Shown here one piece after another: positions 3,070-61,515 of a DNA stretch of 64,000 nt; position 1 is the first letter of the stretch; every line of letters begins with the position of its first letter. The DNA is from Chryseobacterium sp. ISL-80 (lineage in GTDB: Bacteria; Bacillota; Bacilli; Bacillales; Cytobacillaceae): contig JAGGQZ010000020.1 of NCBI GenBank assembly GCA_018613055.1, positions 186,001-250,000 of the forward strand, in the 5' to 3' direction. A program made the position numbers and the translations under genes. Below the pieces are notes generated by a model. The model saw only the letters and a list, made by a program, of their open reading frames with translations. It was not told the origin of the DNA and ran no database searches.

Positions 3070-3468
3070 TTAATACGATAGACTCTTGGCTACAATCCAG
3101 CCAACAGCGAGGGAAAGTGAAAAAAGAATGACACCAACGGAACGATTATCTTCCTCAATCGCTTTTTGAAGGCTGTACCTGATTGTTACAACCTCGGCGA
3201 TAAAAAACACCAGGATTTGAGTGAAAATCCCAATAGAGCCCCAAATTGCCATATCCAGGAGGGAAATTGAATATTCCGCCGCAGCCCCAAGGACAATCGC
3301 GAGTCCCAACATTTTCCCGCCAAGCGAAAGAGCAGCTGTAACGTTTCTTTTGCCAATCAGTTCGAATTCCTTGATTTTAGGAGTAGCCAGCACGAATAAT
3401 CCTACCCCTGCGGTCAGCAAAAGCAATCCAAGTCCTAAATATGAGGCAAAATTCATATATAAATTCAT
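3070..3468 (-). CDS. DUF350 (YjfL-like) membrane protein
   Basis: A 132-aa integral membrane protein with four predicted helices (residues about 9-28, 45-66, 72-93 and 110-129) and almost no soluble part, matching DUF350/YjfL in length and topology. The function of the family is unknown; it recurs beside ATP-grasp YgiC/YjfC ligases, DUF1190 lipoproteins and ion channels, and that partnership is repeated here. Start ATG follows AGAAGGA; a second in-frame ATG four codons on is an alternative. The gap to the lipoprotein gene is 15 bp and to the next gene 15 bp. Confidence 0.85.
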   Translation of the reverse strand: MNLYMNFASYLGLGLLLLTAGVGLFVLATPKIKEFELIGKRNVTAALSLGGKMLGLAIVLGAAAEYSISLLDMAIWGSIGIFTQILVFFIAEVVTIRYSLQKAIEEDNRSVGVILFSLSLAVGWIVAKSLSY

Positions 3469-56726: not shown

Positions 56727-58424
56727 TTACATTTCTTTTGGAGCCTTGATTCCTAAAAGTCTAAGGCCTTCTTCAAGAACAACGCTGACTGCACTCACCA
56801 AAGCCAGGCGTGCATCTTTTTCCTCATTTTCTTGCAGAATCCGTACTTCTCCATAATATTTATTGAAAGCCTGGGCGAGATTCAGCACATATTTTGCGAT
56901 TTGCGATGGATCATTTTTGTCGAAAGCTCTTATAACCGTTTCAGGAAAAGCCATAAGTTCGGTGACAACGGGCCATTCAGCATTACCTTCAAGCTTGATT
57001 TCCACATCGGTTACTGAGCTTGCTGCCTTTCTTAATATGGTTTTGGCCCTGGCATTTGTATATTGCACATATGGACCTGTTTCTCCTTCTACCTTCAACA
57101 TTTCCTCCAGGGAAAAATCAATATCATTCATTCTAAAATTCTTCAGGTCGTGAAAAATGATTGCTCCTGTACCCACCAGATCAGCTGTTTCTTCCTTATC
57201 TTCGAGTAGTGGATTTTTTTCCTCGATATTCTTTTTTGCCAGCTCAATCGAATTTCTAAGGACATCCTCCAGTAAAACAACTTTCCCTTTGCGCGTCGAC
57301 ATTTTTTTGCCATCTTTCAGCATCATTCCAAAAGGGACATGGATGATCCTATCCGCCCACTCAAAATCCATTTTTGCGAGCACAGCTTTTAGCTGTTTAA
57401 AATGAAGACTTTGCTCATTTCCCACAACGTATAAAGATGTGACAAATGTATGCTGATCATATCGATACTTGGCCGCGGCCAAATCCCGGGTCGCATACAA
57501 TGTAGCGCCATCTGACTTCTTAATCAGGCATGGAGGCAGGGCAGCATCTTCCAATTGAACGACCATAGCCCCGTCCGATTCCACAAGCAGTTCTTTTTCG
57601 GCTAAAAGTTCTACGATGGGCTCCATTTTATCATTATAAAATGCTTCCCCAGCGTATGAATCAAACTCAATACCCAGCAGATCATAAATCTTTTTGAACT
57701 CTTTCAATGATTCTTCCTTGAACCATTTCCATAGTTCGAGAGCCTCTACATCCCCATTTTCAAGGCGCCTGAACCAATTTCGGCCTTCTTGTTCGAGTTC
57801 AGGGTTGATTTCTGCGGCTTCATGAAACTTAATGTAAAGGGCAAGAAGCTCCTTTATCGGACTCTCTTTCACTTTCTGTTCACTGCCCCATAGCTTATAG
57901 GCAGTAATCAGTTTGCCAAATTGTGTCCCCCAGTCTCCCAGATGGTTTATTTTAATCGTCCTGAAGCCACACTTTTCATAAATTAACGAAAGGGAATTTC
58001 CTATAACGGTTGAACGCAAATGCCCCATGGAAAAGGGTTTGGCAATATTAGGAGAGGAAAAATCAATAGTCACGATCTGTTGACGTCCACAATTACGGTC
58101 TCCGTAATGGTTTTTCTTTTCTGTAATTTCATGGAGGATTTCAGCAGCTGCTTTTGATTTATTCAAAAAAGCATTCACATATCCGCCAACTGCTTCAAAA
58201 CGGTCAAAGTCAGATTCATTTCTGGACTGCAACTTATGGCTGATGTCCTTGGCAATCTCTACAGGAGACTTTCTCAGGATTTTTGCCATCTGGAAGCAAG
58301 GAAAGGCCAAATCTCCTTGTTGAAGGAATTTCGGTTTTTCGATCAAACGTTCAATATCGTTCAAAGAAAGTATTCCATTGAATTCTTGGGCGAGTAATTC
58401 AGAATATTTTTTGCCGTATTTCAT
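56727..58424 (-). CDS. argS: Arginyl-tRNA synthetase
   Basis: A 565-aa class I synthetase that charges tRNA-Arg. N-terminal Add1 domain, HIGH-type motif in SSPNIAKPFSMGHLRS, KMSKS-type loop DGKKMSTRKG and a C-terminal DALR anticodon domain (PYVQYTNARAKTILRKA). Length is right. The gene is preceded by a T-box leader, so it is induced when tRNA-Arg is uncharged. The leader supports a regulated, possibly second, argS in this genome; the other copy would be outside the window. ATG follows AAAGGTGG. Confidence 0.95.
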   Translation of the reverse strand: MKYGKKYSELLAQEFNGILSLNDIERLIEKPKFLQQGDLAFPCFQMAKILRKSPVEIAKDISHKLQSRNESDFDRFEAVGGYVNAFLNKSKAAAEILHEITEKKNHYGDRNCGRQQIVTIDFSSPNIAKPFSMGHLRSTVIGNSLSLIYEKCGFRTIKINHLGDWGTQFGKLITAYKLWGSEQKVKESPIKELLALYIKFHEAAEINPELEQEGRNWFRRLENGDVEALELWKWFKEESLKEFKKIYDLLGIEFDSYAGEAFYNDKMEPIVELLAEKELLVESDGAMVVQLEDAALPPCLIKKSDGATLYATRDLAAAKYRYDQHTFVTSLYVVGNEQSLHFKQLKAVLAKMDFEWADRIIHVPFGMMLKDGKKMSTRKGKVVLLEDVLRNSIELAKKNIEEKNPLLEDKEETADLVGTGAIIFHDLKNFRMNDIDFSLEEMLKVEGETGPYVQYTNARAKTILRKAASSVTDVEIKLEGNAEWPVVTELMAFPETVIRAFDKNDPSQIAKYVLNLAQAFNKYYGEVRILQENEEKDARLALVSAVSVVLEEGLRLLGIKAPKEM

Positions 58425-58448: not shown

Positions 58449-58680
58449 AAAAAAACTCCCGCCTCTAAAAAGAGACGAGAGCTTAATCCCGCGGTACCAC
58501 TCTAATTGTTCCTGAAAAAGAACCTGCTTTCATTGATAACGGAGTTCGTTCCGGCCAACCCTACTGGTTTTCAGGGAGGCATCTCAAAAGTGCGCTTCAT
58601 TACCCTGTTGCACCAGGCTTTCACCGACCCTGGCTCGCTAATGCAAAGAAGGATAACTACTCTCTTTCTCATCGATTAGA
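58449..58680 (-). ncRNA. T-box riboswitch (arginine, CGC specifier)
   Basis: The minus-strand leader of argS has the T-box sequence AGAGTGGTACCGCGG (58489-58503), the antiterminator region and a terminator hairpin AGCTCTCGTCTCT/AGAGGCGGGAG with T7 (58449-58483). Stem I begins near 58680 with GAAAGAGAGTAG. The specifier loop TGAAGCGCAC places CGC, an arginine codon, at 58592-58594. Uncharged tRNA-Arg pairs with the specifier and T-box to stabilise the antiterminator. Confidence 0.93.
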
Positions 58681-58720
58681 TATTTTTACCATTATAAACA
58701 ACAACTTTAATCATTTGCAA

Positions 58721-59286: not shown

Positions 59287-60195
59287 TTACTCCTCTCTGC
59301 CAGGATAAGTGTATTGATAGGTAAGCTCCTTCACATCTCTTGTTATCTTAACTATTACCATGCCATCAGCAGACTCAAAAATAAAGGATGAACCTTCTCC
59401 TCCAGTCTGCTTCCAAACATCTGTTGCCTGTATCTTAGCAAGATAATCCTTCATGTTTCGGTCCGTACCTCGGTCCCATATATATTTTTCAGTGTCCCCA
59501 TTGATTTCTGCCGGCTGTAACCCTACTGGATAAGGAAGATTTCCATAGCCATGTGTAACATATAGCGGCTTTTCGTGATGATAAGGGGCTGGATTTTTGA
59601 GTCTAAGTGACCCAATAATCTGAAATATATCTGCATATTCAAGCTTTGGATAATCAAAGCTCAAATATAATGTTTCATTGCCCGCTTCCACAAAGAAGTG
59701 ATACCGGAGGCTGACATCCATCATTTTTACATGTTCAATATATAATTTTGTCGGATAGGGAAAATTCTGAAGTTCATCTTCAACATTCATTGCTTTAGAA
59801 CTAAGGATTTCTTTCTTTTTACCATCATTCACGAATTCGGCAAAACCAACCTTTTCAGATTCTCCTTTTTTATAAAAATCATAGCCCTCCTGACTTCTTT
59901 CACTGTATACAGTATCTAAATCCCAAGTCAGAATGAACTTCTTGACAGCCTGTGAATGACCTGCTCTGTCTTCACGTTGATCATATTTTTGAACTTGAAA
60001 CAACAAGCCAGCAGATAAAAGCAGGAATAGCGACGTTAACACCACGTTTTTCAAGTCAAAAATTCTTTGCTTCTTTTTTTGTGCTTTACTATTTCGAATG
60101 GATGACCTTAAATGCATCCTCATTCGGTCCCTTTCGCTTTCACTTGGTGTTAGCTTTTTTAGCAATTCCCATTGTTCCTCAGAAAATTTGCTCAT
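59287..60195 (-). CDS. Probable anti-sigma factor of SigX-like system
   Basis: A 302-aa membrane protein with a cytoplasmic N-terminal helical part (residues 1-48: FSEEQWELLKKLTPSESERD), a single helix (about 50-66: VVLTSLFLLLSAGLLF) and an external domain of about 230 residues. It overlaps the sigma gene by 17 bp. The layout fits a RsiX/RsiM-like anti-sigma factor. GGAGG precedes ATG. No zinc-binding motif seen. Confidence 0.78.
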   Translation of the reverse strand: MSKFSEEQWELLKKLTPSESERDRMRMHLRSSIRNSKAQKKKQRIFDLKNVVLTSLFLLLSAGLLFQVQKYDQREDRAGHSQAVKKFILTWDLDTVYSERSQEGYDFYKKGESEKVGFAEFVNDGKKKEILSSKAMNVEDELQNFPYPTKLYIEHVKMMDVSLRYHFFVEAGNETLYLSFDYPKLEYADIFQIIGSLRLKNPAPYHHEKPLYVTHGYGNLPYPVGLQPAEINGDTEKYIWDRGTDRNMKDYLAKIQATDVWKQTGGEGSSFIFESADGMVIVKITRDVKELTYQYTYPGREE

Positions 60196-60724
60196 TATGT
60201 CCGCCTCCTTCCCCTATATCCTTTTTTCTTAGTGCCGCAAGTCCTCTCGATAGTGTTTTCCTGATTTTTGATTCCGAACAGCCCAGGATTTCGGCAACTT
60301 CTTTAGTGGAACATTCCTCGATTTTTTTCAGAGTGATCACAAGCCGGTAGTCAGGCTTAAGCTGTTGAATTGCTTTCAGGCTCCTTTCTACCATATCCCG
60401 GTTTTCTATATATTGTTCGATGTTTAGAGGTGATGCTATGTCTTGCCCCTCAGAAAATAACGTGAAAATCCTTCTTCTTTTCCGCCTGCGTATTTCATCC
60501 AATACGAGGTGCTTTGCAATGCTAAAAAGCCAGGTCTTTACACTCGCCCTCTTTTCAAATTTCTCAAAGGAAGTATAAGCACGCAGAAATGTATCATGAA
60601 CCAGGTCCTCACAGGATTGGCGATCCCCCAGCATATAATAGATAAAACGGTAAATATCCTTATAATACAATTCATACCATTCCATGACTTTTTGTTCTTT
60701 TAAGTTATCACTAATTTTCCCCAC
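60179..60724 (-). CDS. ECF sigma factor (SigX-like)
   Basis: A 181-aa sigma factor with sigma-2 (about residues 15-80, YKDIYRFIYYMLGDRQSCED, SVKTWLFSIAKHLVLDEIRR) and sigma-4 (about 115-165, CSTKEVAEILGCSESKIRKT). SigX/SigM-type proteins control cell-envelope and antimicrobial-peptide responses. Start GTG at 60724. A TGTCAC-N16-CGAC element 27 bp upstream resembles the SigX-type consensus (TGTAAC-N17-CGAC), so the operon is probably autoregulated. It overlaps the anti-sigma gene by 17 bp. Confidence 0.9.
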   Translation of the reverse strand: MGKISDNLKEQKVMEWYELYYKDIYRFIYYMLGDRQSCEDLVHDTFLRAYTSFEKFEKRASVKTWLFSIAKHLVLDEIRRRKRRRIFTLFSEGQDIASPLNIEQYIENRDMVERSLKAIQQLKPDYRLVITLKKIEECSTKEVAEILGCSESKIRKTLSRGLAALRKKDIGEGGGHNEQIF

Positions 60725-60805: not shown

Positions 60806-60846
60806 TAAAATGGGCCCTTATCTTATTAAGATAGTGGCCCATTTTT
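60806..60846 (-). terminator. Terminator of OsmC-like gene
   Basis: AAAATGGGCC...GGCCCATTTT long stem with central ATCTTATTAAGAT, right at the stop codon (60846); T4 on the minus strand. Confidence 0.8.
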
Positions 60847-61316
60847 TAATCTTCTTCTATATTCCATGTATGTTCAAATTGTATGCTGCCTTTTAATGTT
60901 TGGGAAACCGGACATCCTCTTTCGAAAACATTCAACGCCCTTTCGGCTGCTTCCCTTTTACCTGCTGGAATCTTAAGCATATAATGACAACTGATCTTCG
61001 TTATTTTCAATACTCCTTCAGGTGCTTCAATCGTACCTTGCACCTGCGCCTTTACTTTATCGGGTGAAGTTGGTATTTTACGCGCCTCCAGCGCGCCTGA
61101 TAGAGTGCCGACCAGTCAGCCGCCGGCAGCAGCAACAATATGGTCCAGGGTTGAAGGGTATTCCACTTCTGGATTGACACCATAGAATTGTTTTACTCCC
61201 CCATGAACACCGAATAACAAAGGTTCTTGAAAACCATCGATGTATGCTTGTTTAATTTTATTGGAAATATCCTTTTGAATTACCGTTATTTTTGTTAAGG
61301 CAATTGGTTCGGACAA
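60846..61316 (-). CDS. OsmC-like peroxiredoxin-type protein with in-frame UGA: candidate selenoprotein
   Basis: Read through a TGA at 61118-61116, the frame gives 156 residues of an OsmC/Ohr-like protein, which reduces peroxides with two Cys. The UGA is residue 67, in ...DHIVAAAGG-U-LVGTLSGALEAR, exactly where OsmC proteins carry the peroxidatic Cys; the second Cys is kept as Cys135 in RGCPVSQTL. The rest of the frame is intact, arguing against decay. A SECIS-like hairpin follows the UGA (61081-61096). TTG at 61316 follows GGAGGG by 9 bases. Without selenocysteine insertion only a 66-aa fragment would be made. It needs selA/selB/selD elsewhere. Confidence 0.78.
61080..61096 (-). promoter_or_regulatory. 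Bacterial SECIS-like hairpin after the UGA codon
   Basis: CGCGC / GCGCG stem (plus a closing G-U pair) with loop TGGAG. The loop starts 25 bases after the UGA and has G as its second base, agreeing with the general bacterial SECIS rules (loop 16-37 bases from UGA, conserved G in the first two loop bases, small apical loop). Confidence 0.6.
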
Positions 61317-61515
61317 TGAAACGATCCCTCCTTTTTTAGTTACTATCACCATAATGGAAAGGGTATTATTTTTCAAATAAAATCCTTCTCATAAAATAGG
61401 CTGCCCTTATTTTATTTTATATGATACAAGCTGATGCTCGTCCGATATTTTTACATATGCTGTTGTTGTAAGGTTCGGATCTTACCTATCTTCTTAACAG
61501 AAGGGGGGTGGGGAG

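Follow-up and report, generated by a model that had tools for sequence, protein, structure and literature searches.

A putative OsmC-family selenoprotein gene representing an apparently selenocysteine-only subfamily in Bacillota

In the window, by which we mean the whole stretch of 64,000 nucleotides that was analyzed, we identified a gene for an OsmC-family protein whose reading frame contains a TGA at codon 67 as its sole internal stop. The features of the gene are summarized in Table 1. A preliminary description of this DNA had likewise found the frame to be interrupted by this codon only, and had predicted that gene callers would split the gene; a caller that stops at UGA indeed sees two short frames. 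The read-through product matches the Pfam OsmC family (PF02566) over residues 53-149 with an E-value of 3.9e-14 (53.3 bits, gathering cut-off 27.5). The ribosome-binding site is spaced 9 bases from the TTG start codon. Among 61 relatives, the match opens with ATG in 39, TTG in 14, and GTG in 5, and in the remaining three it begins at residue 3. The promoter candidate, TTGAAA-17-TATGGT, is one of seven such matches in the region, where 2.5 are expected. The hairpin following the stop codon has a computed folding energy of -20.7 kcal/mol (z -5.0) and is absent from the list returned by a simple terminator scan. That so strong a hairpin immediately follows the stop codon suggests that the OsmC gene forms a single-gene transcript.

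Table 1. Features of the OsmC-type gene and its flanking signals, in positions of the window
Feature	Position	Strand	Remarks
Putative OsmC-family selenoprotein gene, 156 residues, TTG start, TAA stop, single in-frame TGA	60846..61316	-	
UGA codon 67, taken as selenocysteine, at the peroxidatic Cys position	61116..61118	-	TGA in 62/62 relatives; corresponds to E. coli OsmC Cys59
Putative bSECIS hairpin within the coding frame, 7-pair stem, GGA apical loop	61080..61096	-	
Cys135 codon, resolving-Cys position	60912..60914	-	Corresponds to E. coli OsmC Cys125
Ribosome-binding site AAGGAGGG	61326..61333	-	Similar sites precede the start in most of 12 relatives viewed
Probable transcription terminator, strong hairpin with T-rich flank, directly 3' of the stop codon	60807..60845	-	
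Possible sigma-A type promoter TTGAAA-17-TATGGT	61348..61376	-	Consensus match only (9/12)

Within 3 kb of the gene in 62 loci, no cluster of ORFs was present in more than eight loci, the gene itself and its shadow frames aside, and no conserved neighbour hinting at a function was found. Most of the neighbouring clusters are restricted to near relatives. An ORF that by eye resembles glycerate kinase is located near the gene in seven loci from two groups, Planococcus/Planomicrobium and Cytobacillus. Downstream on the same strand in the window are two ORFs (59287-60195 and 60179-60724, minus strand) that by eye appear to encode an ECF sigma factor and a membrane-bound partner, and ORFs related to these are found near the gene in four other loci. 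The window also contains a T-box leader (58468-58681, minus strand; 123.9 bits), located just upstream of a 565-residue ORF (56727-58424) that by eye looks like an arginyl-tRNA synthetase.

The window is part of contig C13 of a 4.7 Mb genome, and selB is located ~7 kb from the OsmC gene on the same contig. The preliminary description had proposed a search for selA, selB, selD, and tRNA-Sec, and in this genome all four scored above their cut-offs: tRNA-Sec with 60.6 bits (Rfam cut-off 47; reported by ARAGORN as tRNA-SeC with anticodon TCA), selB with 372.5 bits (cut-off 242.25), selA with 562.9 bits (cut-off 267.9), and selD with 399.5 bits (cut-off 125). The curated cut-offs matter because, in 14 control genomes, weak matches were far more frequent (tRNA-Sec in 14, selB in 14, selA in 4, and selD in 14) than matches above cut-off (5, 2, 1, and 2 genomes, respectively). 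The host genome has other candidate selenocysteine genes as well, since UGA codons followed by hairpins are also found in selD and in two fdhA genes. The selD gene contains one UGA, in an AGUGCK motif near its start that we take to be the active site, and downstream of this UGA is a hairpin with a GUU loop, while two of the six above-cut-off matches to formate dehydrogenase alpha (fdhA) contain one in-frame UGA, followed by hairpins with GGUCU loops.

Selenocysteine use had been presumed in the preliminary description to be rare in Bacillaceae. This does not hold for the order to which the host belongs, where the selenocysteine machinery is common: of 299 genomes sampled, 137 contain selB and 139 contain selA above cut-off. 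For Bacillales, the table of a 2006 survey gives three selenoproteins in three families (PMC1794560), and compared with these figures many more genomes with the machinery are found in the present sample. All 34 genomes of the order carrying a near full-length copy also contain selB, against the 137 of 299 overall (hypergeometric p 2.4e-13, calculated with kinship ignored). In addition, selB was detected in each of 50 named genomes tested, which were drawn from 61 distinct genomes, overlap to some extent with the host-order sample, and include the genome with the broken copy L080 as well as that of L021. In the latter genome (Mesobacillus boroniphilus JCM 21738), the OsmC gene is intact, and the selB match, which covers model positions 32-580 only, contains one TGA that is due either to a draft error or to decay of the machinery. 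An uninterrupted selB accompanies the gene in, for example, the culturable Rossellomorea vietnamensis and Planomicrobium okeanokoites.

Relatives of the gene were identified by one scan of a one-genome-per-species collection using six peptide patterns that all avoid residue 67. The aligned codon was TGA in all 62 loci obtained, at identities of 61 to 92%. The preliminary description had considered that the UGA might occur in this isolate only, with a decaying second half behind it; the codon is instead common to the relatives, and purifying selection is equal on its two sides (pN/pS 0.20 before and 0.21 after the UGA). These values, like the synonymous rates given below, were obtained from those 38 of 62 sequences that share one start-to-UGA spacing. 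A pseudogene or a sequencing error, with the UGA as a plain nonsense mutation, is exceedingly improbable in view of both observations, even though the two short frames seen by a UGA-stopping caller would fit such a reading and truly decayed copies do exist in a few relatives. The decayed copies (in genomes G085, G243, and G197 and at locus L080) are found despite the presence of selB. The intact close relatives appear to read UGA as selenocysteine as well.

At E <1e-40, a search of the 299 genomes of the host order gave 35 single-TGA places, distributed over 34 genomes, plus the broken copy in G085; the TGA was located within the sequence for the fetched loci, and for the others it was counted only. 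Below these came another piece of the broken G085 gene (E 2.4e-30) and the remnants in G243 and G197. The next rows start from E 1e-9 and contain almost no stops, with identities of at most 33% among the rows listed. From more than 100 such weak rows listed, 20 paralogues were picked and fetched, and the alignment of Cys homologues at residue 67 that the preliminary description had proposed showed Cys at this column in all 20. One weak row, G162:C33 (E 7.8e-5, 29%), holds one TGA.

The UGA-encoded residue (U) and the three residues following it form a UxxG motif in the 62 loci and in the divergent copies; it reads U-L-V/T/A/S/I-G, or U-M-Y/F-G in two of the divergent copies. At the level of the phylum, a 23-member profile matched 6 of 398 genomes at E <=1e-12, all with UGA and including the broken G085 copy and the window's own genome. 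For the class to which the most distant member belongs, a wider profile gave matches at E <=1e-10 in three of 154 genomes, again all with UGA. The lowest identity to the window protein among the proteins aligned was 37%. No Cys form of the UxxG subfamily was found in the species scan, the plasmid collection, the host order, or the phylum and class samples, which mainly represent Bacillota; in the plasmid collection, one distant match only was obtained, to a Legionella OsmC-family protein (29% identity over 73%). The distribution of the gene is patchy, and two genomes of the window's own genus (G143 and G194) contain selB and gave no match. Some genomes contain two copies with UGA, among them Marinithermofilum abyssi, G337, and G019 (loci including L069 with L070 and L112 with L117). 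The copy at L057, on a contig titled Pseudomonas sp. ISL-84, groups with those of Cytobacillus, and this assembly is probably mislabelled or contaminated. For a tree built from 68 Sec rows together with 20 Cys rows, an unconstrained quick search placed the Cys rows at two separate points, on branches of length 10. When the Sec rows were constrained to group together, the likelihood was higher by 41, and this tree was not rejected (p-AU 0.946). Because the branches are so long, a single origin of the Sec rows is not shown by the tree.

The sequence downstream of the UGA can form the hairpin GCGCGCU-GGA-GGCGCGU. A GC hairpin with a UGGAG loop had been reported in the preliminary description to start 25 bases from the UGA; the hairpin and its loop are present, and 25 bases is the distance to the UGGAG loop, the stem itself starting at 19 bases. 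For bSECIS elements, a 2026 review (PMC13188914) gives limits of 4-16 pairs for the stem and 3-9 for the loop, with G in the first two places, a distance of 16-37 bases from the UGA, and an energy of at most -7.5. The hairpins of the window gene and 61 relative loci (62 genes in total) lie within these limits, with 6 or 7 pairs, a GGA, GGC, or UGGAU loop, a distance of 25-26 bases, and energies of -9.3 to -11.2 kcal/mol for the nine variants observed. Locus L080 was left out of the hairpin counts because an 11-base deletion in the hairpin breaks the frame. At this locus (3193-3240; Cytobacillus oceanisediminis CGMCC 1.10115), the bases are apparently missing between two GGCGCG repeats, through a real deletion or an assembly slip, and selB is still present in the genome. 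In the divergent copy L140, the stem is interrupted by a single A-C mismatch.

The conservation of the hairpin at synonymous sites exceeds chance, whereas its folding energy alone does not. In terms of energy, the hairpin is unremarkable for its composition (49 bases, z -0.64), with 47 of 200 shuffled sequences folding as well. Codons 75, 76, and 78, on the other hand, are GCG, CTG, and GCG in all 62 genes, and codon 79 is always CGT or CGC; elsewhere in the same genes, GCG makes up 14% of Ala codons and CTG 16% of Leu codons. Synonymous differences per site amount to 0.111 in codons 74-79, compared with 0.797 in codons 2-66 and 0.767 in codons 80-150. Among 114 windows of six codons, those starting at codons 75, 74, 73, and 76 have the highest synonymous identity (0.85 to 0.74), the median being 0.42 and the maximum in the 94 windows away from the hairpin 0.54. 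The preliminary description had suggested covariation of the hairpin in relatives as a check; in this comparison, no stem pair has changed on both sides, four of the seven pairs never vary, and three vary on one side. The loop-closing pair is non-standard in 9 of 58 distinct sequences. In place of two-sided covariation, of which none was found, we used the synonymous-site conservation as support for the hairpin.

This conservation of an RNA structure also bears on whether the UGA terminates translation to give two short proteins, or is decoded as Trp or a different amino acid through leaky readthrough. In favour of such a reading, an ORF of 65 residues, starting with the GTG at 61043, is callable downstream of the UGA; a start at this GTG, however, would drop half of the central helix (residues 56-78), and the near full-length copies tested were all in genomes with selB. 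We thus regard both termination and leaky readthrough as very improbable. The selenocysteine reading put forward in the preliminary description is supported by the presence of the machinery, the UGA in 62 of 62 relatives, the absence of decay after the UGA, and the synonymous-site conservation of the hairpin. As judged from sequence, the gene almost certainly encodes an OsmC-fold selenoprotein, with selenocysteine inserted at UGA 67 via SelB and the downstream hairpin. In this process, the hairpin just 3' of the UGA would be bound by SelB with Sec-tRNA(Sec), and at codon 67 the ribosome would insert selenocysteine rather than terminate.

In the predicted structural model (mean pLDDT 94.5), residue 67 is located in helix 56-78 and residue 135 just past helix 121-134. 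The best match among solved folds is 2onf (Z 15.0, rmsd 2.1 over 139), and E. coli OsmC (1nye) matches with an rmsd of 2.6 over 135. The leading matches of known structure are entries for OsmC, Ohr, or OsmC-like proteins, together with a few named only as hypothetical or redox proteins. A profile alignment (1qwi, counted by hand) places residue 67 at Cys59 and residue 135 at Cys125 of E. coli OsmC, which are described as its two active-site cysteines (PMC5113044). This agrees with the preliminary description, which had placed the UGA exactly at the peroxidatic Cys and had found the second Cys to be intact. Two motifs of the subfamily, TLD before the Sec and GALxAR after it, are invariant in 17 aligned members, as is His38, which is replaced by Gln in L140 and L141.

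Because residues 67 and 135 fall on the active-site cysteines of OsmC, and because an OsmC fold is predicted, we infer that the protein probably performs a Sec67-Cys135 peroxidase cycle of the OsmC type with a selenenylsulfide intermediate. Sec67 lies in the central helix, and its selenol probably attacks a peroxide, which is most likely organic. The resulting selenenic acid would form a selenenylsulfide with Cys135, which would then be reduced by a cellular dithiol. Lipoylated proteins serve as reductants of Ohr and OsmC proteins. A real selenoprotein with another task, such as a selenol/thiol reaction in which a sulfur or selenium compound is reduced, seems rather unlikely, given that both OsmC redox positions are kept and that OsmC and Ohr are the best-matching solved folds. 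Such a task would nevertheless be in keeping with the subfamily's own TLD and GALxAR motifs and with the lack of any recognised neighbour gene of peroxide defence, and an OsmC-domain protein containing both cysteines has been described as having no detectable peroxidase activity (PMC5113044).

We tentatively suggest that this OsmC subfamily could be obligately Sec-based over several Bacillota lineages, the gene being lost or decayed rather than switched to Cys and the hairpin being near-frozen. If so, these bacteria would rely on selenium in defending themselves against peroxides or a related reactive compound, and the output of this defence would be tied to selenium supply. In dozens of sequenced Bacillota, a UGA-stopping gene caller would split or miss the gene, and a conserved stress protein may therefore be misannotated. 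A seemingly Sec-only clade with culturable hosts would offer a test case for why selenium is kept where other selenoprotein families have widespread Cys forms, and the nearly invariant hairpin would be a natural reporter of SelB recognition in these bacteria. The finding adds a new subfamily and no new principle.

As the preliminary description had stated, OsmC-like selenoproteins are known; members with a UxxT motif have been reported in the Sargasso Sea and GOS sets (PMC1088965, PMC2398784; reviewed in PMC9312934 and PMC13188914). No report of an OsmC selenoprotein in Bacillaceae was found in the open-access literature, as judged by titles and abstract openings. The Sargasso/GOS proteins, as described in these sources, share with the window protein the OsmC family, a Sec at a redox position, and a bSECIS element after the UGA. 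They differ in having UxxT where the window subfamily has UxxG, in originating from marine metagenomes rather than from Bacillota genomes, and in having Cys-containing homologues, according to the figure legends, of which none were found for the window subfamily. The NCBIfam model NF041052 (OsmC_like_Se) is likewise OsmC-related and named for (seleno)proteins; its cut-off of 95 was not reached by the window protein (24.5 bits), and of five further members two scored 20.7 and 19.4 and three were unlisted. Three other OsmC models likewise have cut-offs far above the scores of the window protein, and against the TIGR03562 OsmC peroxiredoxin subfamily it scored 33.7 bits (cut-off 85.8). Compared with E. 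coli OsmC and Ohr, the protein shares the fold (Z 13.9 for OsmC and at most 13.6 for organic hydroperoxide resistance entries) and both redox positions, while a UGA (Sec) replaces the peroxidatic Cys. OsmC and Ohr rows have 11 to 21% identity to the window protein, and TLD and GALxAR belong to the window subfamily. Because of the UxxG rather than UxxT motif and the scores far below the NF041052 cut-off, we place the protein in a separate subfamily, one not encountered in the literature searched. The window gene would thus represent a known kind of protein, the bacterial OsmC-type selenoprotein, in a separate and apparently Sec-only subfamily.
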